Assembly: GCF_020991365.1 (NCBI RefSeq)
Contig: NZ_JAJLRA010000001.1
Coordinates: 300,142-364,141 of the forward strand
Reading direction: 5' to 3'
Length of the DNA: 64,000 bases
Source: Streptacidiphilus sp. ASG 303
Lineage (GTDB): Bacteria > Actinomycetota > Actinomycetes > Streptomycetales > Streptomycetaceae
Position 1 is the stretch's first letter. Each line of letters begins with the position of its first letter. This document shows positions 9,892-27,005 of this stretch, piece after piece. The position numbers and the translations under genes were made by a program. The notes under the pieces were generated by a model. The model was given only the letters and a program-made list of their open reading frames with translations, did no database searches and was not told where the DNA came from.

Positions 9892-10344
9892 TCAGAGGAT
9901 GACGACCCCGCGGCCGTACCCGCCGCCGTACCCGCCGCCGTACCCGTAGTCGTCGCAGTCACGGTGGTGACGGCGGTGGCCCCAGCGGTCGCAGTCGCGG
10001 TGGTGGCGGTGGTGGCGGCGGCCCCAGCGGTCGCAGTCGCGGTCCCGGTCCCAGCGGCGGCCCCAGCGGTCGCAGTCGCGGTCCCGGTCCCAGCCGCGGT
10101 CGCAGCGGTCGTCGCAGTCGCGGCCCCAGCGGTCGCCGTAGCCGTGGCCGTAGTCGCCCCGGCCGTAGCCGTGGTCGCCGCCGCGGCCGTAGTCGCCGCC
10201 CCGGCCGTAGTCGCCGCCGTGGCCGTATCCACCGGTGACGACGGAGGCCGGCGCAGCGGCCGACGCGGTTCCCGCGAGCCCGCCGATGGAGGCGGCAGCC
10301 GCCAGTGACGCGACTGCAGCAGCCTTGGCAATACGTGCGTACAT
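9892..10344 (-). CDS. Secreted Gly/Asp/Arg/His-rich repeat protein
   Basis: Exported protein of 150 residues. The signal peptide is residues 1-29 (MYARIAKAAAVASLAAAASI, then GGLAGTASA). The mature part is low complexity: GGDYGRGG and HGYGRGDYGHGYGDR first, then repeated DRDCDRWGRR and HHRDCDRWGHR units holding about ten Cys and many His, then GYGGGYGGGYGRGVVIL. The RBS GAGGTGA precedes the ATG. Signal peptide and hydrophobic C-terminus resemble the secreted Gly-rich protein at 29.7 kb. It may be a cell-surface structural or metal-binding protein; no function can be assigned. Confidence 0.75.
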   Translation of the reverse strand: MYARIAKAAAVASLAAAASIGGLAGTASAAAPASVVTGGYGHGGDYGRGGDYGRGGDHGYGRGDYGHGYGDRWGRDCDDRCDRGWDRDRDCDRWGRRWDRDRDCDRWGRRHHRHHRDCDRWGHRRHHRDCDDYGYGGGYGGGYGRGVVIL

Positions 10345-10921
10345 CTCTGTTTCACCTCGGGTCGGTGTGTACCTCCCCTCGCCCGGCTCGATCGTACGGT
10401 CCGCGGGGCCGCCGGGCGGCCGAGCCGCAGCGCCGCAGCTGTCGCCCCGTGAGCCGAACGGACCATCAAGCAACAGCCACCGCAGGCACGTCGGCGCAGG
10501 TGGAGCGCTTCCGGTGCCGGGCCGGCCGAAGCACTCGTCCAGGTGAAGGCACCGGGGGTGTCGCACCGCGCCGGCCCCGCCCCGGCGGTCCGGGCGGCGC
10601 CCGGGGCGGGCGTGCGGCGCCCCCTCGGGAGGGCTCCGGGAGGGGCACCGGACGCCCCGCGGCGGACGTCCGGAGCCTCCTCCGTCCCCTCCGCCGGAGG
10701 CGGGCGGCTCTGGTACGTTCGCTGCAGCGCACCGACGGGCCGCCCCCAGCGGCGGCCGCAAGGACCGGGACCGCGCGGCGCACCTCCGCCGCGACCGCCC
10801 CGTGCCCCGTCGGGCGGCGCGCCACCGCGGCGCTCTCCTGACCTCTCCCAGGAGGCGTCCCGTCCTCGGCGCGGCCGCGGCCCCCGGGGCCGTCCTGCCG
10901 CCGTTCATTCCCAGGAGAGTC
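10345..10921. other. Intergenic region between divergent secreted-protein genes
   Basis: About 580 bp with no convincing coding frame. It must hold the promoters of the minus-strand repeat protein and the plus-strand thioester protein. CCCAGGAG occurs twice, at about 10850 and 10910; the second serves as the RBS of the gene at 10922. Confidence 0.5.
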
Positions 10922-12046
10922 ATGCCACGCCTTCGCCGTCCCCACGCCGTGCTCGCGGCCGCCGCCGTGCCGGCCGCCGTCCTGTCGGCGCTGCTCCCGT
11001 CGGCGCCCGCCGCCGCGGCGCCGCCGGAGCCGGCCTCCCGTCCCGCCGCCGACGCCCGCCTCGAGGAGCCCATGGCCGACGCGGGCCTCGTGACCGTCGA
11101 GGGCCACGAGGTCCCCGCCGGACTGCTGCTGCTCAGGACCCCCGGCGGGGAGGAGCTGCGCGCGTACTGCGTGGACGTGGACCACGACGCGCAGCCGGGC
11201 ACCCGCTACCGGGAGACGGCCTGGGGCGACCCGAGGGCCTCGGCCGTCCGCAACCTCGACCGCGTCGGGTGGGTCCTGCGCCACTCCTACCCCTTCCTGA
11301 CGCTTCGTCAGGCCGCTCGTGAGGCGGGAGTCCCCGAGGCGTCGCTGACCGCGGACGACGCGGCCGCCGGCACGCAGGCCGCCCTGTGGCACTTCTCCGA
11401 CGGGCTCGACGCGTCGCCCGTCGACGCGGACGCCCGCGGCCTGGCCGCCTGGCTCGTCCGCAACGCCGGGCGCGGGGCGGAGCCCGCCGCGGGCCTCTCG
11501 CTCCTGCCGCCGGGCGGGGCGGGCCGGGCCGGCGGGACGCTGGGCCCCTTCCGCGTCCAGGGCGCGTCGGGCGGACTGGAGACCGGGCTGGACCCGGCCG
11601 CACGCCGGGCCGGCGTGGTGCCCGTCGACCGCCGCGGCGCCCCCCTCCCCGCCCGGGTGCAGCCCGGAACCGGCCTCTACCTGCGGATCCCCGAGGGCGC
11701 GGGGGCGGGCAGCGCCGAGTTCACGGTCTCCGCCCGGCAGTCCCTGCCGGTGGGCCGCATCCTCACCAGCGAGCCCTGGGGCGCACGGGAGCACAGCCAG
11801 ACCATGGTCCTGGCGGCGTCCGAGCCGACCGTGGTCCGCGCCTCGGCCCGCGCCCGCTGGACCGGCGCCCCCGCCGCCCGCGCCGCCCGGTCGGCGAGGC
11901 ACCGCGCGGCTCCGGGGCGGGGCCCCGGCCTCGCCGCGACGGGCGGCCCGTCGCTGCCGGTCTCGGCCGGGTACGCGGCGGCCGGCGCCGTCCTGCTGCT
12001 CGTCGGCCTCGCGCTGCGGCGGCGCTCGGTGACGCGCCGTCGGTGA
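10922..12046 (+). CDS. Surface thioester-domain (TQXA) protein with sortase-type C-terminus
   Basis: Exported cell-wall protein of 374 residues. A signal peptide (about 1-33, ending APAAAA) is followed by a thioester domain: Cys83 in LRAYCVDVDHDA and Gln152 in AAGTQAALWHFSDGLD are the pair that forms the internal Cys-Gln thioester in this family, used to bind host or surface amines covalently. The C-terminus has LAATG followed by a hydrophobic helix (AGYAAAGAVLLLVGLALRRR) and Arg residues, the LAxTG signal of class E sortase in Streptomyces. CAGGAG precedes the ATG. No sortase is in the window. Streptomyces homologues are suspected in aerial-hyphae adhesion; that role is inferred. Confidence 0.85.
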   Translation: MPRLRRPHAVLAAAAVPAAVLSALLPSAPAAAAPPEPASRPAADARLEEPMADAGLVTVEGHEVPAGLLLLRTPGGEELRAYCVDVDHDAQPGTRYRETAWGDPRASAVRNLDRVGWVLRHSYPFLTLRQAAREAGVPEASLTADDAAAGTQAALWHFSDGLDASPVDADARGLAAWLVRNAGRGAEPAAGLSLLPPGGAGRAGGTLGPFRVQGASGGLETGLDPAARRAGVVPVDRRGAPLPARVQPGTGLYLRIPEGAGAGSAEFTVSARQSLPVGRILTSEPWGAREHSQTMVLAASEPTVVRASARARWTGAPAARAARSARHRAAPGRGPGLAATGGPSLPVSAGYAAAGAVLLLVGLALRRRSVTRRR

Positions 12047-12808: not shown

Positions 12809-13375
12809 ATGCAGACACACACAGCCCCTCCTCCGCACCGCCGCCAGGCGGGGCGCCACCGCCGGGCCGGACCGGACGACGGTCCGGCCCCTCCCGGCAT
12901 GCTCGACCGGATCACCCCCCGCCCGGCCGGTACCGGCGGGGGGCGGCCCGACCCGGGGCCCGGGCGCGCCGTGGAGGTCACACCGGCCGGCGTGCTCGGT
13001 CTGATCCCCCGGCTGGGACTCACCCCCTCGGCCGTCGCCGTGCTGGGGATCATGTCGGACCTCCAGGCGCCGGGGGGCCGCGTCCACCGCACGCAGTACG
13101 AGATGGCCCGGGAGCTCGGCGTCCCGGAGTCGGCGGTCAGCCGGGGCATGAAAGTGCTGGTGGACCGCCATCTGGTGATCCGGGGCGGGGACGGCCGCGG
13201 CAACAGCTACCGGCTGCACCCGTTCGTCGCCAAGTACGCCTCGCAGGAGGAGATGGAGAGCGCCCTGCGGGCCGCGGCCGGCGAGGTCCGGGCGGGACGC
13301 CTGCCCGACATCTCGGCGCCGCCCCACCGGCGCAGGCAGGCGCGGCCGGGCGGCACGGACCTGGTGGCGGTCTGA
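12809..13375 (+). CDS. Winged-helix DNA-binding protein (MarR/RepL-like)
   Basis: Protein of 188 residues. The first 70 residues are His/Arg/Pro-rich and probably disordered. The domain at about 72-165 is a winged helix: VEVTPAGVLGLIPRLGLTPS, then VHRTQYEMARELGVPESAVS with RGMKVLVDRHLVIRGGDGRG as the recognition helix and wing, and NSYRLHPFVAKYAS. This resembles MarR-like and RepL-type domains of actinomycetes. GAGG lies close upstream of the ATG. It is followed by a strong terminator and then by the peptide cassette, for which it could be a regulator; that link rests on position only. Confidence 0.72.
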   Translation: MQTHTAPPPHRRQAGRHRRAGPDDGPAPPGMLDRITPRPAGTGGGRPDPGPGRAVEVTPAGVLGLIPRLGLTPSAVAVLGIMSDLQAPGGRVHRTQYEMARELGVPESAVSRGMKVLVDRHLVIRGGDGRGNSYRLHPFVAKYASQEEMESALRAAAGEVRAGRLPDISAPPHRRRQARPGGTDLVAV

Positions 13376-13393
13376 GCGGGGCCGAGGCGTGAT

Positions 13394-13448
13394 GCGCACG
13401 TGCGGAGGGGCCCCCGGCGGTCGGCCGGGGGCCCCTCCGCACGTGCGC
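13394..13448 (+). terminator. Strong hairpin after the winged-helix gene
   Basis: Perfect 25-bp arms (13394-13418 and 13424-13448) with a 5-nt loop, starting 18 bp after the stop codon. There is no T-run, as is usual in this genus. It isolates the peptide cassette from upstream transcription. Confidence 0.85.
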
Positions 13449-13923
13449 GCCCGGGGCTCCGCGGCACAGCACCGACATTTCTTGTCCGGTGCATTTCATT
13501 ACCTGGCGAAGAGAACCGGACCATCCCGGACCGGACGGGCGGAACGGGCAGGACCGGCCGGCCGCGCGGCCCCCGCGACGCCGCGCCCGTTTTCCGGTCC
13601 ACCCCGTCCGCCACGGGCGACAGAACCCGCAATGACAGGGCGGGAAGCACCCGAATAGCGCAGCGGAGAACCTTGCGGATTTCCGGGGGATCCATTCGAC
13701 ATGCCACGCAACAGGGCTGGGAATGAAAATCCTACTTTGTTGGGTACCGGACATCCCGACGCCCCTGTTACAAAGCGGTGACACAGATTCCCCGGTTTTC
13801 GCTTGCACCGGATGTTTGCGAGGCAATAACGTCCAATGTCATCGGACGGAGCGTCCGACGAGGAAGGACAACCGGCCCCGGCCGGCGGTCCCCTCTCCTT
13901 CCGCAACACGCAAGGAGACCATC
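13449..13923 (+). promoter_or_regulatory. Leader and promoter region of the peptide cassette
   Basis: AT-richer than its surroundings. TTGCAC (13803-13808) and TAACGT (13827-13832), 18 bp apart, form the best promoter match. A dyad TCGGACG-GAG-CGTCCGA lies at 13842-13858 just downstream, suited to an operator. AAGGAG about 7 nt before the ATG at 13924 is the RBS. Confidence 0.5.
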
Positions 13924-14139
13924 ATGATCGACGCCAACGAGCTGGAGAACGAGGCCGGCGAGCTGCTCCCCGGGCGCGAGGCCCTGGGCCGGTTCAGCCT
14001 CAACCTCACCAAGCTGACGAGTATCACCAAGCACGTGGCCAACGTCCACGCCGACAACAGCTCGTACGCGGTGAACAACTACTCGGACGACGCCGTCGCC
14101 CAGGCCAACTCCGGCCAGTGGATCAGCGTCCACCAGTGA
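13924..14139 (+). CDS. 71-aa precursor-like peptide of a RiPP-like cassette
   Basis: Small protein with the two-part look of a ribosomal peptide precursor. An acidic N-terminal part (MIDANELENEAGELLPGREA, then LGRF) contains LPGREAL, a motif I recall from small actinomycete peptides encoded next to M50 proteases. The C-terminal part is rich in Asn, Ser, Thr and Val, has no Cys, and ends GQWISVHQ. A good RBS (AAGGAG) precedes the ATG; the frame is open 67 codons further upstream but without an RBS. It is followed by two hairpins and the M50 protease gene. No modifying enzyme is visible, so the product may simply be cleaved and exported. Function is inferred. Confidence 0.75.
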   Translation: MIDANELENEAGELLPGREALGRFSLNLTKLTSITKHVANVHADNSSYAVNNYSDDAVAQANSGQWISVHQ

Positions 14140-14231
14140 CGCACTGATCCGGCGCGCAGGGCCGTCCCAGGTCCGGGCGCACCAGGAGAGGCACCTCCCC
14201 GAACCGCCCCACCAGGCCCGGATCTCTCGGG

Positions 14232-14255
14232 GTCCGCCGCCCGACAGCGGCGGAC
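14232..14255 (+). terminator. Hairpin downstream of the peptide gene
   Basis: GTCCGCCGC-N6-GCGGCGGAC, 9-bp perfect stem, 93 bp after the peptide stop codon. Could end or stabilise a short peptide transcript. Confidence 0.5.
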
Positions 14256-14386
14256 GCGCCGGGCCCGGTACACCGGGCGGATCCCGGAGGTGAGCGTGCC
14301 CCCCGGTCCAGCGGGACGGATCCGCAGGGCTGTCCGGCAACCAGTCGGACGGTGACCACGGAGCGCCTGTCGGACAGCACAACCTC

Positions 14387-14429
14387 GCGGCGTTCTCGGC
14401 GGCGCGGCACTCGCCGCCGAGAACGCCGC
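14387..14429 (+). terminator. 18-bp hairpin between peptide gene and M50 gene
   Basis: Perfect 18-bp arms (14387-14404, 14412-14429) with a 7-nt loop, ending 32 bp before the M50 start codon. Partial termination here would keep the peptide transcript in excess over the protease transcript, as in many peptide operons. It may also protect an mRNA end. Confidence 0.7.
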
Positions 14430-14461
14430 CCGGTCCAACGAACGAGGGATGACGAGGTAGC

Positions 14462-16456
14462 GTGGCCGGCCACCACTCCAGACACGCGGCGGACGCGGGA
14501 CGCGGCACCGCCGACGGGCCCCCGCCGGCACCGGCCTGGCATCAGCCCGGCCCCCCGGCTCCGATCGCGGTGCTCCCGGATGCGGCCCCACCGCCACCCC
14601 CGGACCCCGCGCCGGCGGCACACCCCGGACCGCCGGCGGACGACACCGCCGTCCGCACCCGGGTCCCGCTCCTCGCGCCCGGCACCGAGCTCCACGGCCA
14701 GTACGAGGGCTCCGGCTTCACCGAGGCCCGCTACCTGGCGAACCGGGGCGACGGGCAGCCGGTCATGCTCAGCAGGCTGCTGTACCTGGTCGCCTCCGCC
14801 CTGGACGGCGTCCGCGACTACGAGCGCGTCTCCCACCACGTCAGCGGCCGCTACGGCCGTGAGGTGAGCACCTCGAACATCGCCTTCCTCGTCGAGCGCA
14901 AGCTCGTCCCGCTCGGTGTCGCCTACCTGCCCGAGCACGGGGAGGCGCCGCCGCCGGTCCCCAAGACCGACCTGCTCCTGGCCCTCAAGGGCCACAAGGT
15001 GCTCCTCCCCCCGCGGGCGGTGCTCGCGGTCGCCGACGCCCTGTCCTGGCTCCACCGGCCGGCCGCCGTCACCGCCGCCCTGCTGAGCGTCGCCGTGCTC
15101 GACGCCTGGCTCTTCCTCGTCCACGGCGCGATGACCCCGGTGCTCCACACCATGGAGCAGCCGGTCCTCCTGCTCGCGGTCTTCGCGCTGACCGTCGGCT
15201 CGCTGCTCTTCCACGAGTTCGGCCACGCCTCCGCCTGCCGCTACGGGGGCGCGAGACCGGGCTGCATCGGCTGCGGCGTCTACCTGATCTGGCCGGCCCT
15301 GTACACGGACGTCACCGACATCTACCGGCGCGGCCGAGGCGCGCGGCTGCGCACCGACACCGGCGGCATCTACTTCAACGCCGTCTTCGTGCTGGGCCTG
15401 TTCGCCGGCTACTTCGCCACCGGCCAGGAGTTCCTGCTGGCCGCGGTCTACCTCGTCCACTTCGAGGCGCTGGAGCAGCTCATGCCCGCCGTCCGGCTCG
15501 ACGGCTACTACATCCTGGGCGACCTCGCCGGCATCCCCGACCTGTTCGGCAAGGTGCGGCCCATCCTCTCCAGCATGGTCCCCGGCCGCCCGCTGCCGCG
15601 CGAGGTCCGCGAGCTCAAGAAGTCAGCGCGGGTGATCGTGACGGCCTGGGTCGTGACGATGGTCCCCCTCATCGTCGCCGAGCTCTCCTACGCCCTGTGG
15701 AACCTGCCGCGCCTGGTCTCCACCGCCGTCCGCTCGCTCACCGAGCAGGTCCGGGGCACCGCCGAGGCCCTGCGGGAAGGCGCCCTCGCCCAGGCCGCAC
15801 TGGGCACGGTGGGCAGCCTGCTCCTCGTCCTGCCGATGGGCGGCGTCGTCTACCTCACGTTCCGCATCGGCGGCCGGCTGTACCGGGCCGGAGTCCAGGC
15901 CACGGCCGGGCGGCCCGCCGCGCGCCTCGCCGTCGTGGGCTGCGTCGCCGCCGTCGCCGCCGCCCTGGCCGGCGCGTGGACGTACGGCATGACCCCGAAG
16001 ACGCTGCCGCCCAAGCCGCCCCTCGCACCCGCACTGCAGCCGAACGTGCCCCGCCCCCAGGTCCACGCCACGGCCCCCGCCCGCCACCGGCACCGCCACC
16101 ACGGCCCGGCCGCCTCCCCGACGGCCGTCCCCGGCCCCCCCTCGGGCTCCCCCTCCGCGCGCGTGCCGCTGCCCGTCCCCTCCTCCCCCTCCCCCCGCGC
16201 GTCGACCGGCTCCCCCCGGCCCTCCGCCGACGCCTCCTCCGCGGTCCCCTCCGCCCGCACCTCGCCGTCGTCGACCCCCTCCTTCCCCGGCGGGTCGGCG
16301 ACCCCGAGTCCCAGCGCCTCCCCGAGCGAGCCCGTACCGACGACCTCTCCACGCCCCACACCCCCGAGCGGCACCCCGTCCCCGCCCACCCCCGGACCCT
16401 CGCCGACCGGACTCCCGACGGCGACGGCGACGGCACCGACGGCGGCCGGCGGCTGA
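14462..16456 (+). CDS. M50 membrane metalloprotease with PqqD-like N-terminal domain
   Basis: Integral membrane zinc protease of 664 residues. After a Pro-rich start, residues about 70-155 look like the PqqD/RRE-like winged helix of peptide-maturation M50 proteins (ELHGQYEGSGFTEARYLANR; VMLSRLLYLVASALDGVRDY; FLVERKLVPLG). Several membrane helices follow. HEFGH at 251-255 and the LDGYY motif at 346-350 are the zinc site of site-2 proteases. Residues about 511-664 form a His-containing, Pro/Ser/Thr-rich tail, probably outside the membrane. GAGG precedes the GTG start. It is 23 bp upstream of the secreted-protein gene. Likely cleaves or exports the peptide encoded upstream; this is inference. 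Confidence 0.85.
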   Translation: MAGHHSRHAADAGRGTADGPPPAPAWHQPGPPAPIAVLPDAAPPPPPDPAPAAHPGPPADDTAVRTRVPLLAPGTELHGQYEGSGFTEARYLANRGDGQPVMLSRLLYLVASALDGVRDYERVSHHVSGRYGREVSTSNIAFLVERKLVPLGVAYLPEHGEAPPPVPKTDLLLALKGHKVLLPPRAVLAVADALSWLHRPAAVTAALLSVAVLDAWLFLVHGAMTPVLHTMEQPVLLLAVFALTVGSLLFHEFGHASACRYGGARPGCIGCGVYLIWPALYTDVTDIYRRGRGARLRTDTGGIYFNAVFVLGLFAGYFATGQEFLLAAVYLVHFEALEQLMPAVRLDGYYILGDLAGIPDLFGKVRPILSSMVPGRPLPREVRELKKSARVIVTAWVVTMVPLIVAELSYALWNLPRLVSTAVRSLTEQVRGTAEALREGALAQAALGTVGSLLLVLPMGGVVYLTFRIGGRLYRAGVQATAGRPAARLAVVGCVAAVAAALAGAWTYGMTPKTLPPKPPLAPALQPNVPRPQVHATAPARHRHRHHGPAASPTAVPGPPSGSPSARVPLPVPSSPSPRASTGSPRPSADASSAVPSARTSPSSTPSFPGGSATPSPSASPSEPVPTTSPRPTPPSGTPSPPTPGPSPTGLPTATATAPTAAGG

Positions 16457-16479
16457 CCGCCCCACCCCTAAGGATTCCC

Positions 16480-17208
16480 ATGCAGCACACACGACACGGA
16501 CAGAAGCGCCCCCGCACACTGCTCAACCTGGGCGTCTACGCCACCGCGGGACTGGCCGCCATCGCCGTCGGCGTGCCCGCGATGGCCTCCACGGACGCGC
16601 CGTCCCCGGCCGGCCACATCGGGACCGAGGTCCACGTCGACACGGACCTGGCCATCAGCACCGCGAGCCCGCTGCGCACCCGCGACATCGCCACCAACCT
16701 GACGATCCGCGAGTACGGCGACACCGTGGGCGCCGGGGCCGTCAACAAGGCCCTGGCCTCCTCCCGGGCCTGCGTCGAGGACGAGCACTGCGCCTCCCTC
16801 GCCGTCTCCTTCCAGATCATCACCATGGGCGGCAGCCACCTGCACCTCCTGGCCCGCAACGTCAGCCGCGCCACCAACAGCCACTGCGACGGCTGCCAGT
16901 CCGCGGCGGGCGCCTACCAGTTCATCGTCGACACCCCCGACGTCTTCCGCATGGGGGCCGGCACCCGGCGTGAACTGGCCCGCATCCAGGACGCGCTGCG
17001 CCTCCTGGAGGACAGCGGCGCGAGCCCGGCCACCCTCCACCGCCGGGCCGACCAGCTGGCCGCCCGCGTGGTGGCGATCCTCCAGGACGCCGTGGCGCAC
17101 GTCCCGCAGCACCGGGCCCGCACCCGCCCCGGCTACGCGCCGGCCCCGCACAAGCCGTCGGTGACCCTGCACCGCCTCACCGACGGCTGGCAGCCCGCCG
17201 GCCGCTGA
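16480..17208 (+). CDS. Secreted four-cysteine protein of the peptide cassette
   Basis: Exported protein of 242 residues. Signal peptide: basic start RHGQKRPRTLLNLGVY, hydrophobic core, cleavage near VPAMAS. The central domain (about 70-155) contains Cys98, Cys104 and a Cys136-x-x-Cys139 pair within SRATNSHCDGCQSAAGAYQF; these could form disulfides or a redox pair. The C-terminal part is helical and His-rich (RIQDALRLLEDSG; VVAILQDAVAHVPQH). RBS-like AAGGAT lies before the ATG and the gap from the M50 stop is only 23 bp, so the two genes form an operon. I recall similar proteins beside M50 proteases in other Streptomyces, but know no assigned function. Confidence 0.75.
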   Translation: MQHTRHGQKRPRTLLNLGVYATAGLAAIAVGVPAMASTDAPSPAGHIGTEVHVDTDLAISTASPLRTRDIATNLTIREYGDTVGAGAVNKALASSRACVEDEHCASLAVSFQIITMGGSHLHLLARNVSRATNSHCDGCQSAAGAYQFIVDTPDVFRMGAGTRRELARIQDALRLLEDSGASPATLHRRADQLAARVVAILQDAVAHVPQHRARTRPGYAPAPHKPSVTLHRLTDGWQPAGR

Positions 17209-17224
17209 CCCGCGGCCCCACCCC

Positions 17225-17254
17225 GGCGGACGGCCCGTCAGGAGACCGTCCGCC
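17225..17254 (+). terminator. Hairpin after the secreted-protein gene
   Basis: GGCGGACGG-N12-CCGTCCGCC, 9-bp perfect stem, 16 bp after the stop codon. Probable end of the M50 transcript or partial read-through into the small gene at 17420. Confidence 0.55.
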
Positions 17255-17419
17255 CCACGACCCCCGGCCCGGCGCAGCACCCATCCCACCCTCGCCCCCT
17301 GCGCCGGGCCGGGCCTTCCCCTGCTCCGCCGCCCGCCGCGGCGGCCTCCGGAACCGCGTCGCCGCGGGGAGGCCCGGCCGGCGGGCGCGCGGCCCGGGGA
17401 GGACGACAAGGAGAGCCCC

Positions 17420-17686
17420 ATGCCGGCTCCTGGAGACGCACCGCGGGACGGCCGGCCGGCGCCGCCGGACCGTGCCCCCCGCGCGGCGGGCGCTCCCGGC
17501 GCCGCGGACGCCGGAGGGAGCGGGGACGCCGCAGCGGACCGTCCCGGCGCACCGGCCGCCGCCCTGCTGCCGGGCGGCGCGGCGGACCTCCCCCGGCTGC
17601 TGCAGTGGATCACCCTGCACGCCGACACCGCGATGCTGCTGCGGCTGCGCGAGGCGCTGCGCCGGATCGACGCCGAGTCCGATTGA
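17420..17686 (+). CDS. 88-aa small protein with paralogue at 9447
   Basis: Hypothetical protein of 88 residues. The first half is a disordered Ala/Pro/Gly stretch; the second half is one or two helices (DLPRLLQWITLHADTAMLLR, then LREALRRIDAESD). The helix matches the C-terminus of the 63-aa protein at 9447-9638. A clear RBS (AAGGAG) lies 6 nt before the ATG. Last member on the strand of the peptide, M50 and secreted-protein group. It might be an accessory or immunity-like partner; this is only suggested by position. Confidence 0.7.
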   Translation: MPAPGDAPRDGRPAPPDRAPRAAGAPGAADAGGSGDAAADRPGAPAAALLPGGAADLPRLLQWITLHADTAMLLRLREALRRIDAESD

Positions 17687-17780
17687 GCGGCCCGGCGGTC
17701 CGGCGGCCCGACATCCGGGCCGCCGGGCTGCCGGGCCGTCGGGCTGCTAGGCCGTCAGGCCGCCGGGCCGCTCGGCCCGG

Positions 17781-18329
17781 TCAGCGGCCCGCCGGGGGTC
17801 CGGCCGGGCCGTCGGCGAGCCGCTTGTAGAAGAAACTGCAGTCTCGCAGGACCCCGGCCGGGTCCGCCGCGTAGGCGGGGACCACCCCGTACCGCGTCCA
17901 GCCCGCGGCGAGGTAGAGGTGCTCCGCGGGACTGCCGGTCTCGGTGTCGAGCAGCAGCAGGCCGGCCCCGGCCCGGGCGGCGGCCCGCTCGGCGGTGGCG
18001 AGGAGGGCGCGGCCGAGGCCCAGGCCGCGGGCGTCGCTGCGGACCATGAGCTTGACGACCTCGGCCCGGTGGCGGCCGTTGGGCTTCTCCTCCAGCGCGA
18101 GGCCGACGGTGCCCAGGACGCCCCCGGTCCCCCGGGCGGCCCAGACGGCGAGGCTGCCGTCGGCGACGGCGTCCAGGCGGGTGCGCCACCAGGCCGCCGC
18201 GGCGTCGGGGCCGAAGGGGGCGAGGAACCCGAGGGAGGAGCCGGACGCCACGGCATCGGCCAGGAGGACGGCGAGGTCGGGAACGCTGCTGCGGAACCCG
18301 TCGGCGGACAGGCGGTCGATGGCGTGCAC
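17781..18329 (-). CDS. GNAT-family N-acetyltransferase
   Basis: Acetyl-CoA-dependent acyltransferase of 182 residues. Motif A is VVKLMVRSDARGLGLGRALL with the pyrophosphate-binding R-G-L-G-L-G; before it come the VWAARGTGGVLGTVGLALEE strands and after it LLLLDTETGSPAEHLYLAAG, as in this family. Start is the GTG of VHAIDRLSADG, with GGAGGAG about 8 nt upstream. Single gene; the substrate is not known. Confidence 0.85.
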   Translation of the reverse strand: MHAIDRLSADGFRSSVPDLAVLLADAVASGSSLGFLAPFGPDAAAAWWRTRLDAVADGSLAVWAARGTGGVLGTVGLALEEKPNGRHRAEVVKLMVRSDARGLGLGRALLATAERAAARAGAGLLLLDTETGSPAEHLYLAAGWTRYGVVPAYAADPAGVLRDCSFFYKRLADGPAGPPAGR

Positions 18330-18795: not shown

Positions 18796-20136
18796 TCACC
18801 ACCGGCCGGAGGAGAACACCGCTCGGGCCGCCCGGGCGCGCAGGGGTGCCAGCTCGGCCTCGACGGCGGCCGTCTCCGCCGCGTCGGCGGTGAGGGCGGC
18901 CTCCCGGGGCCCGCGGGCCTCGCAGAGCCGGATCCTCAGGTGGGTGGGCGGGTGGGTGCTGTCCACGGACCCCATCCGCAGGGCGGAGACGCGGATTCGG
19001 CGGGCGCGCTCGGTGCCGGGGACGGAGGCGATGTACTGCCGCAGCTCGTCCCAGAGCCCGGAGTCGTCCGCTGCGCCCGGCGGCGTCCGGGAGGCGGCGC
19101 CCGTGCGGCGCACCGCCGCCTGACGCCGGAAGAGGGCCTCGACGCTGTCGTGGAGCACCAGCGCCTCCAGCATCGACCGGGTCGCCGCCGACGAGCCGAC
19201 CCGTGCGGCCAGGTCGTCCGCCAGGTACTCGGCGTGCTGGCCGGTGCGCAGGGTCAGCCGGTCGAGCAGGCGGAGCAGCAGCCCGGCGAGGGTGTGCGGG
19301 ACCAGCATCAGGAGGCCCGCGATCCCCTCCGCGACCTGGAAGAGCGCGTCGGACCGGCCCGCCGGCGTGCGCACGGGACGGGTGGTCTCGTACCAGTGGT
19401 CGAGGGTCACCACGGCCGAGTGCAGCCAGAGGCCGCGGCGTGCGTCGCCGTTGACGGCGTGGCCGAACTCGTGGCCGAGCAGCGCGATGCGCTCCTGCGG
19501 GGTGAGCACCTCCCACAGGGCCAGGCCGATCGTGAGGACGCCGCGGCGGCGCAGCCCGACCCTGCCGTAGGAGGCGTTGAACTCCGGGGTGACGCGCACC
19601 AGATGGACCGGGGGCGCCTGCAGTGCGGCGGCGACCCGGTCCGCGAGGGCGTGGAGCCGTGGCGCGTCCGCACGGTTCAAGGACCACTCGTCCCGGCGGA
19701 GCCGGCCCAGGCGGGGGCGGAGCATGAAGGCGAGGAAGAACCCGGCCGCACCGAACGCGCGGGCGACGGTGTTCCCGGTGACCAGCAGCCACAGGGAGCC
19801 CCCGGCCAGGACGGCGGTCACCAGGTGCACCGCTCCGGCGAGGGCCGAGGCGGAGAGCAGCGCCCGGTCGCGGCCGGGACGCCGGTCCGGCTCGGCGGAC
19901 ACGTCCGCGTACAGGCGCTCGACCGCCAGGTGCCCGGCCCGGCGCCGCGCCTCCTCCCGGCGGGCGGAGCGGCCGGCCGGGACGTCCTGCACGGCGGCGG
20001 ATCCCCCGGGGTCGACGTTCCAGTCGCACGAGGGGCACCAGGCGACGAAGCGGGTGTCCGTCGGGAGCGGGGCGCCGCAGGACGGGCAGGACAGGTCGGC
20101 CCGTGCGGGGGGCGGCGTGATCATGGCGGAGATCAT
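18796..20136 (-). CDS. M48-family membrane metalloprotease with zinc ribbon
   Basis: Zinc protease of 446 residues related to HtpX/Ste24. A zinc ribbon at the N-terminus (CPSCGAP then WCPSCDWN) is followed by two membrane helices around 90-140. The catalytic HEFGH is in ALLGHEFGHAVNGDARRG, and the third ligand Glu is in HAEYLADDLA. Membrane helices also flank the middle region (IAGLLMLVPHTLAGLLLRLL). An in-frame ATG at 20124 (MITPPPARA) is an equally good start, with a -10-like CATGAT 7 nt before it. HtpX-like enzymes degrade damaged membrane proteins; the zinc ribbon is an actinomycete addition of unknown role. Confidence 0.85.
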   Translation of the reverse strand: MISAMITPPPARADLSCPSCGAPLPTDTRFVAWCPSCDWNVDPGGSAAVQDVPAGRSARREEARRRAGHLAVERLYADVSAEPDRRPGRDRALLSASALAGAVHLVTAVLAGGSLWLLVTGNTVARAFGAAGFFLAFMLRPRLGRLRRDEWSLNRADAPRLHALADRVAAALQAPPVHLVRVTPEFNASYGRVGLRRRGVLTIGLALWEVLTPQERIALLGHEFGHAVNGDARRGLWLHSAVVTLDHWYETTRPVRTPAGRSDALFQVAEGIAGLLMLVPHTLAGLLLRLLDRLTLRTGQHAEYLADDLAARVGSSAATRSMLEALVLHDSVEALFRRQAAVRRTGAASRTPPGAADDSGLWDELRQYIASVPGTERARRIRVSALRMGSVDSTHPPTHLRIRLCEARGPREAALTADAAETAAVEAELAPLRARAARAVFSSGRW

Positions 20137-26440: not shown

Positions 26441-26671
26441 TCAGCGGCCGGGGCGGTTGGCCGTGCGGACCCAGCGCAGCACGGCGGCGCAGGTCTCCTC
26501 GTCGAGTTTGGCGACGGCGCGCATCGCGGCGGCGTCGCCGGGCGCGGTGGGGACGCTCGCGTCGGAGAGGGCCAGCAGGAGCTGCCCCCAGCGGTCGGCG
26601 GCCGTCGGGATCGCCAGGGTGTCGGCGGGGCGCAGGAGGACCGTTCCGGTGTCGGGGCGCGGCTGGCTCAT
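26441..26671 (-). CDS. Small hypothetical protein
   Basis: Protein of 76 residues beginning MSQPRPDTGTVLLRPADTLA and ending in a helix LDEETCAAVLRWVRTANRPG with one Cys. No signal peptide or membrane segment. An ATG 17 codons upstream is an alternative start; neither has a good RBS. It resembles small Streptomyces proteins of unknown role. Confidence 0.55.
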   Translation of the reverse strand: MSQPRPDTGTVLLRPADTLAIPTAADRWGQLLLALSDASVPTAPGDAAAMRAVAKLDEETCAAVLRWVRTANRPGR

Positions 26672-27005
26672 GTGCGGACCAACGAGCAGGACGGCCCGCG
26701 GGGTGTGCGCCGAACGGGTCATGACGGCGGGCCGGGACGCCCGGCGGCGCGGCGGACGGGGCCGGGCGGGGCGGGGCTGGGCGGGGCCGGGCGGGGCCGG
26801 GCGGGGCCGGGCGGGGCCGGGCCGGGCCGGGCCGGGCGGGGGTCGTACCGTCCGCGGGCGCGGCCGTGCGCGGGACCGGGCCCGGCGGCGGCCGTGCCGC
26901 GCCTCAGGGGCCCCGGGTCACGCGCCCCTCCCGGGAAGCGGCCGCCGCGGGAGGGGACGCCGCGGGAGGGTGTGCCGCGGGAGGGGGTGTGCGTCCGACG
27001 GGGCC
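26672..27005. repeat. Intergenic GC-rich tandem repeats
   Basis: No gene. Four exact copies of GCGGGGCCGG lie at 26781-26820, flanked by degenerate copies, and near-repeats of GCGGGAGGG follow at about 26940-26990, before the end of the LysM-M23 gene. Confidence 0.6.

Follow-up and report, generated by a model that had tools for sequence, protein, structure and literature searches.

What is made at a locus where a short, leader-bearing peptide adjoins an intramembrane protease that appears suited to bind the leader? We addressed this question in Streptacidiphilus sp. ASG 303, for a window of 64,000 nucleotides (the whole stretch of DNA analysed; NCBI RefSeq assembly GCF_020991365.1, contig NZ_JAJLRA010000001.1, positions 300,142 to 364,141 of the forward strand). 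A preliminary description, made from the letters alone, had placed at window positions 13924-17686 a four-gene cassette for a product resembling a ribosomally synthesized and post-translationally modified peptide (RiPP). Four open reading frames (ORFs) do lie there, all on the + strand, and three of them, encoding the peptide, an M50 protease and a cysteine-containing protein termed P3, form a real and conserved cassette whose genes recur together in Actinomycetota; the fourth, P4, is excluded from it. Overall, the earlier observations were confirmed in part and their interpretation was supported in part. The evidence tips slightly in favor of a system in which a protease guided by a RiPP recognition element (RRE) sets free peptides that are unmodified and probably amyloid-like, and P3 joins in their assembly. 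The computed results bearing on this reading are conservation of the three genes, a leader shared by different cores, residue alternation in the core, a motif common to core and P3, association of P3 with core type, and fusions of P3 to the protease; structure prediction contributes an RRE-like fold and a P3 beta-domain. The features concerned are as follows.

13924-14139, + strand: precursor peptide, 71 aa, with an acidic leader at about residues 1-22 and a core at about residues 23-71
14462-16456, + strand: RRE-M50 intramembrane metalloprotease, 664 aa, GTG start
14654-14944, + strand: predicted RRE-like domain of the protease, residues ~65-161 (model residues 5-101)
16007-16453, + strand: Pro/Ser/Thr-rich tail of 149 residues at the C terminus of the protease
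16480-17208, + strand: P3, 242 aa, with a hydrophobic N terminus, a predicted beta-domain, Cys98/104/136/139, the core-like motif N127-Q147, then two helices
17420-17686, + strand: P4, an 88-aa ORF, not conserved and not counted as a cassette member

A three-gene cassette in Actinomycetota

Peptide relatives were found in 45 of 297 Streptomycetaceae genomes, representing 7 of 17 genera, a distribution that puts the cassette beyond chance. In the neighbourhoods fetched, contig ends excepted, the usual order is one to three peptides, an M50 protein (52-67% identical) and a P3 homologue (36-57%), and most protease relatives have one to four upstream peptides. The preliminary description had set beforehand, as a test of its reading, that peptide and M50 genes should occur together in other genomes. 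The protease is present in 33 of the 33 peptide-positive genomes compared by both searches, and three further genomes have only a divergent protease (this count assumes that the 121 genomes compared are those with handles up to G120). Across the class, the protease was matched at E 1e-10 in 64 of 394 genomes, six of the 64 holding only distant matches of 27-30% identity; across the phylum, the protease clade was detected at E 1e-30 in 25 of 396 sampled genomes, 19 of them outside the window's class. Copy number varies between genomes, and one cassette is plasmid-borne. The source genome itself has a further complete cassette, whose peptides form a pair (C167), and its P3 genes number exactly two. 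A peptide pair, the protease and P3 also occur together in Streptomyces lilacinus NRRL B-1968 (L044), S. cinnamoneus JCM 4633 (L045) and Streptacidiphilus neutrinimicus NBRC 100921 (L046). In one annotated record, that of Streptomyces sp. NBC_00557, all three cassette genes are annotated 'hypothetical protein'.

A shared leader and its candidate protease

The leader of the window peptide has a net charge of -5 and contains ELLPGREAL, bearing out the leader-like LPGREAL reported earlier for a 71-aa peptide; the last residue of the peptide is Gln. The boundary between leader and core was drawn from conservation. A common leader form, E-L-x-x-E...L-P-x-[RK]-E-x-[LM], occurs also in other families and classes, ahead of unrelated cores. 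Across 92 loci read in six frames, this pattern matched 123 times. Of these matches, 121 lie upstream on the protease strand, and the remaining two belong to the adjacent cassette in L064, viewed from both sides. Among 85 clade loci with 1.5 kb or more of upstream DNA, 73 gave a match, as against none of four outgroup loci, and the 12 clade loci lacking one show looser leaders. A second set of 21 loci, fetched later, yielded a visible leader in 14. Mean pairwise identity among 74 Streptomycetaceae peptides is 0.79 in the leader versus 0.58 in the core.

Behind the leader stand cores of several types: one-unit beta-arch peptides, the commonest; NANLAAPVNAAVAANVLSDGSTAYANAEQ-like peptides; long precursors of ~200-490 aa with several beta-arch-like units; His/Asp/Gly repeats (L064, L118); Gly-rich cores (L204); and Ser-Pro-Asn-rich pairs (L173-L189). 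Tandem peptide pairs are frequent. That one leader precedes unrelated cores points to leader/core logic, and by sequence and gene order the cassette has what defines a RiPP system, a leader-bearing ribosomal precursor and a dedicated processing protein. The peptides have no signal peptide or membrane segment, the best 19-residue hydropathy being 0.28 in the window peptide and at most 0.77 in 75 relatives. Pfam and NCBIfam searches with the peptides and P3 gave only unrelated weak matches, the best to a gasdermin model (E 0.006), and the sole Pfam listing for the window peptide was likewise unrelated (E 0.17). In L064 (14000-19300), two divergent cassettes lie side by side, each with its own protease; one has a beta-arch peptide, the other a peptide with the same leader and a DRGHDRGG-repeat core.

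The 664-aa protease carries the HEFGH and LDGYY first noticed in it, and H-E-x-G-H and D-G-Y, the HExxH and the second, Asp-containing zinc-ligand motif that M50/site-2 proteases have in membrane helices, are invariant in 59 aligned relatives. Its predicted model (predicted local distance difference test, pLDDT, 89; predicted template modelling score, pTM, 0.84) opens with an RRE-like winged helix of beta3-alpha3 order (E E E H H H over model residues 16-88). A winged-helix or RRE-like fold at this end was the other point on which the preliminary description had made its reading depend, and it survives. In VIA-align, model residues 5-101 could be superposed on RREs from the lasso, cyanobactin, thiopeptide, sactipeptide and PQQ pathways. 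The best of these is a leader-bound lasso B1 protein (5v1v; Z 7.9, root-mean-square deviation (rmsd) 3.1, 85 residues), and 8vpo, 4bs9, 4v1v, 6ec8 and 3g2b were also aligned. The protease part aligns to RseP (7w6y, Z 8.6), SpoIVFB (8vjl, 7.5) and MjS2P (3b4r, 7.3). The window protease falls below the cut-off of Pfam PF02163 (9.8 versus 27.2 bits), a profile that matches 32 of the 59 members at E up to 1, and Protein Data Bank sequence searches with the protease and P3 alignments returned nothing below E 0.1. In the tree, the clade and four outgroup proteases stand at opposite ends of a very long branch. Two of the outgroup loci, L191 and L192, encode peptides with a daptide-like LQELE[AT]LEAPG leader some 2 kb ahead of their distant M50 genes.

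An RRE-M50 fusion working with a leader is known from daptides, in which MpaP is the leader peptidase (passages of PMC10036551). The likeness lies in an RRE-like domain fused to a site-2-type protease and adjoining short leader-bearing peptides, and 59 of 59 aligned proteases match the daptide NCBIfam model NF041824. However, the window protease scores 64.9 bits against a cut-off of 300, and daptides have an ELExMEAP leader and a C-terminal Thr, whereas the window peptide has ...ELLPGREAL and ends in Gln. The cassette also has a P3 partner and no conserved set of modifying enzymes; no decarboxylase, aminotransferase or methyltransferase of the daptide kind was found among conserved neighbours or the 12 window ORFs near the cassette, no genome-wide profile search having been made. 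Daptide membership was rejected on the cut-off and on the leader and C-terminal Thr.

Epipeptides and pearlins also use M50 proteases, and in epipeptides (YydH/LiaK, EpeP) the protease is thought both to cleave and to export (passages of PMC10885120). All 59 aligned proteases match the epipeptide model NF058609, weakly; the window protease reaches 30.4 bits against a cut-off of 225, and epipeptide membership was rejected on this score. The cassette differs further in its RRE-like domain and P3, and no radical SAM gene is conserved nearby; no radical SAM epimerase was seen among conserved neighbours, where no profile search was run.

The preliminary description had found no known modifying enzyme and expected a cleaved, exported and perhaps otherwise unmodified peptide. 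Its negative was upheld near the 92 loci, where no known RiPP-modifying enzyme is conserved, and among the 12 window ORFs by Pfam (a genome-wide LanM, YcaO or radical SAM search was not made), and the expected product fits because none is conserved with the cassette. Nor is a transporter or membrane immunity gene conserved with it. Since neither transporter nor modifying enzyme is conserved, the core is probably unmodified and may exit through the protease. A conventional RiPP would instead have its core modified by an enzyme encoded elsewhere, with the conserved Ala, Ser and Asn as modification sites. RRE domains do mostly serve modifying pathways, and the daptide protease is the nearest named family; we nevertheless judge this explanation quite improbable, both because no modifying enzyme was conserved near those loci or seen among those ORFs, a result short of a dedicated genome-wide search, and because one leader serves cores with no common modifiable residue.

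The proposed beta-arch core and P3

The aligned Streptomycetaceae cores show little or no variation at alternate positions, which read A, V, A, N, S, A, N; then S; then A/S, A, S, A, Q, I, I/V, Q. The intervening positions are free to change. In each of the two strands, the two kinds of position differ in entropy by ~2 bits (permutation p 0.001 and 0.0004), and in the segment preceding them alternation is not significant (p 0.07). The commonest core looks like a single strand-arc-strand unit, a self-assembling beta-arch. A motif, N-x3-[AS]-x-N-x2-[SC]-x10-Q, is shared by 91 of 121 cores and 34 of 39 P3 proteins, as compared with shuffle means of 0.06 and 0.005, and is present in 73 of 73 Streptomycetaceae cores and 16 of 16 cores of the second class.

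P3 is the protein in which Cys98, Cys104, Cys136 and Cys139 had been singled out at the outset. It has a hydrophobic N-terminal stretch, and its invariant residues in 39 aligned relatives are N89, A93, C98, C104, A108, N127, C136, C139, A145 and Q147, all four cysteines thus among them. The segment N127-Q147 (21 residues) has the same spacing as the peptide core. The predicted structure of P3 (pLDDT 84; pTM 0.75) consists of six strands of 13-14 residues followed by two helices, and strands 84-97 and 122-135 alternate (p 0.003 and 0.0016). Profile comparison aligned Streptomycetaceae cores with P3 in motif register (pairwise E 1e-3 and 4e-4, probability 20 and 36). In structure, P3 also matched a CsgA fibril weakly (Z 3.4, rmsd 8.0); this match was not used as evidence.

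Presence of P3 goes with the type of core. Of 88 clade loci, 67 could be classified: 49 have a motif core and P3, 16 neither, two P3 only and none a motif core only (Fisher 1.4e-13, uncorrected for relatedness). The remaining 21 were excluded for short flanks or because the peptide was missed by the regular expression. The cores of the two loci with P3 only, L167 and L175, look like relaxed forms of the motif. By eye, the second set showed a motif-like core with P3 in six loci (L203, L219, L225, L226, L228, L229) and another core, full flanks and no P3 in three (L204, L223, L227); four with a motif-like core end about 1.6 kb or less past the protease (L215, L216, L218, L224), and in three others P3 is present but no leader was recognised (L220-L222). 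Motif-less cores occupy about four places in the protease tree, some with modest support (L064/L118; L120; L121-L123, L162 and L166; L173-L189 with L185). P3 is a core component of the cassette, and it follows core type, not the protease.

Furthermore, P3 is fused behind the C terminus of the protease in 12 loci and in four of the second set. None of these runs through unread residues; a 13th case, L132, crosses nine of them and was dropped. The fusion scan undercounts separate P3 genes, some stop-to-stop frames starting upstream, and presence was therefore taken from the P3-core survey. Such fusions suggest that both proteins act in one machine, with P3, by order, beyond the last membrane segment.

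Collectively, these data suggest a sequence of events. In the cytoplasm, the RRE-like domain at the N terminus of the M50 protein would bind the acidic leader. The intramembrane zinc site would then cut leader from core, and the core would leave the cell, possibly through the protease itself. Outside, cores with inward-facing Ala, Asn, Ser, Gln and Ile would stack to form an amyloid-like assembly or a beta-solenoid. P3, whether exported by its own N terminus or carried on the far end of the protease, would serve as nucleator, cap or anchor, having the same motif and its cysteines in the arc.

Curlin repeats are strand-arc-strand units on the same alternation principle, with fixed inward residues, and curli (CsgA/CsgB) resemble the cassette in inward residues ending in Gln/Asn and in pairing a subunit with a second protein of like repeat (passages of PMC10192328). 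However, the minimal curlin repeat X6QXGX2NX10 was found in 0 of 73 Streptomycetaceae cores, 0 of 16 cores of the second class, 0 of 11 long precursors and 3 of 39 P3 proteins, and curli membership was rejected on this repeat; ten precursors gave no Pfam curlin match. The cassette also has one unit per short peptide, and a leader with an intramembrane protease, whereas curli use a signal peptide and CsgG. Chaplins and rodlins, small assembling surface proteins of streptomycetes, offer a likeness in the same organisms and are exported by signal peptides. With these comparisons in mind, a fuller version of our reading, which we hold tentatively and rate somewhat short of an even chance, would make the cassette an actinobacterial curli counterpart on RiPP logic. 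The RRE-guided protease would be a modular export gate, beta-arch subunits would polymerise on Cys-clamped P3, or on the protease where P3 is fused to it, and the gate would be re-used for His/Asp-repeat, Gly-rich and Ser-Pro-Asn cores at loci without P3.

A two-peptide bacteriocin is the main competitor of assembly. The RRE-M50 protein would cut and export tandem peptides directed against competitors, and P3 would be an extracellular immunity or chaperone protein. Frequent tandem pairs, copies that differ between genomes and a plasmid-borne cassette agree with this, as does the service of protease relatives to antimicrobial epipeptides (passages of PMC10885120) and to daptides. Yet no transporter or membrane immunity gene is conserved, the cores are neither cationic (net charge of the window peptide 0) nor hydrophobic, and fixed inward with free outward residues suit assembly better. 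P3, moreover, has the motif of the core, and some precursors have several units in 200-490 aa. We therefore regard a bacteriocin as unlikely.

Several points weigh against release of a beta-arch core for assembly with P3. All of its support is derived from sequence, and leader binding, cleavage, export route, assembly into a fibre and the role of P3 are inferred. Three peptides stand away from any protease: two copies in the source genome G000 (C137:11595-11807, 89% identical, and C44:39241-39447, 62%; L048 and L049), which lie among unrelated genes with neither protease nor P3 nearby, and the second peptide of L073, 8 kb from its protease. The leaders of the two source-genome orphans are alike, so the window protease may serve them in trans. 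Only 1 of 11 long precursors has the strict motif, and the leader expression missed 7 of 21 loci of the second set, several with ample upstream DNA (L217, L220). Of the PqqD/RRE-like N terminus first proposed, the predicted RRE-like winged helix stood, but PqqD profiles gave only weak matches, in 4 and 6 of 59 members. The Z values for RREs are middling (7.9 to 5.7), and the structure-alignment tool warns that Z below 8 can reflect a common arrangement; the top match is the winged helix of a methyltransferase (8hkr, Z 9.3), and a Fur repressor is also matched (Z 5.1). For the RRE-like domain, fold is accordingly better supported than function. Foldseek at E 0.001 gave no match to the protease and P3 models. 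P3 strands 105-117 and 140-152 alternate non-significantly (p 0.13 and 0.09), and the profile alignment of core with P3 is weak, the remaining pairings having probability 15, 2.5 and 0.6. Finally, the motif and leader patterns were written after the sequences had been viewed, so that shuffles show them to be real, not predicted, and the loci are related, which the p values ignore.

RRE-M50 leader systems were already known. In the open-licence full-text literature we found no description of a core-tied partner such as P3, of a lack of conserved modifying enzymes, of an LPxRE leader with interchangeable cores, or of a beta-arch core, and the motif letters retrieved no relevant paper there (one chance match). 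If assembly holds true, the cassette would represent a new kind of secreted fibre system, a leader-directed peptide class in which only the protease that recognises the leader and a partner for assembly are conserved, and it would tie leader recognition of the RiPP kind to extracellular fibres. It makes testable the ideas of an RRE steering an intramembrane protease to export a soluble peptide and of products that build a surface layer.

Neighbouring genes and sequence elements

Besides the three genes, only a divergent helix-turn-helix gene and a ~90-aa gene recur (39 and 40 locus matches); when 12 of the 92 loci served as queries, 11 loci was the most that any other plausible neighbouring gene matched. 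The pair lies upstream of the canonical cassette, essentially in Streptomycetaceae (for example L065:6497-7463), and the window cassette has a MarR-like gene in its place. Its presence upstream of many Streptomycetaceae loci would suit signalling, in which a regulator would read either the freed core or the act of cleavage as a report on envelope or development, and M50 proteases often act in regulated proteolysis. We consider signalling very unlikely, however, as the pair is essentially confined to Streptomycetaceae and is not adjacent to the window cassette, and as multi-unit precursors and an assembly-like pattern would be unusual for a pheromone.

P4 was tried as a cassette member and rejected, being matched in the window only. 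The paralogue once assigned to it 8 kb away did not hold up, since P4 has no similarity to the ORF at 26441-26722. Its C-terminal 43 residues gave no match in any other context locus at E 1e-3, and in its own genome P4 found itself and three matches at E 0.03-0.07. A relationship to the ~90-aa gene upstream in relatives was also rejected, on a negative bit score. By Pfam, the 12 window ORFs near the cassette comprise MarR, M48 peptidase, thioester domain, GNAT, glyoxalase, AraC, nucleotidyltransferase, DUF4232, glycosyl hydrolase 6, MFS and M23/LysM proteins, and one without a family.

Two elements accompany the genes.

13394-13448, no strand assigned: perfect 25-bp inverted repeat with a 5-nt loop (arms 13394-13418 and 13424-13448), possible terminator
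14382-14434, no strand assigned: stem in the peptide-protease spacer, 23-nt arms, 91% complementary, 7 nt apart

The first lies between the MarR-like gene and the cassette. It had been called a terminator; the repeat is indeed perfect, but it has no T run, and a terminator scan found no + strand site within 13300-18000. A promoter scan found none, and an Rfam search gave no match. An RBS-like (ribosome-binding site) AAGGAGA precedes the peptide gene. The spacer stem (z -4.25 versus shuffles), which the preliminary description had overlooked, is a possible attenuator. In 35 of 72 loci the best stem of this spacer is longer than in all 20 shuffles, and in the other 37 it is not; such stems would fit partial termination that yields more peptide than protease.

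Directly after P4, a 44-nt imperfect inverted repeat (75%) occupies window positions 17685-17773. On the - strand, an ORF at 9892-11202 contains a signal-like start (MYARIAKAAA...) and, after it, GYGRGGDYGHGG and DRDCDRWGRR repeats that recall the His/Asp/Gly cores in L064 and L118. It is overlapped on the opposite strand by a thioester-domain protein of the surface-adhesin type (10802-12046, + strand; PF08341, E 7e-14). The M48 peptidase, at 18796-20136 on the - strand, has an N-terminal zinc-ribbon-like stretch.

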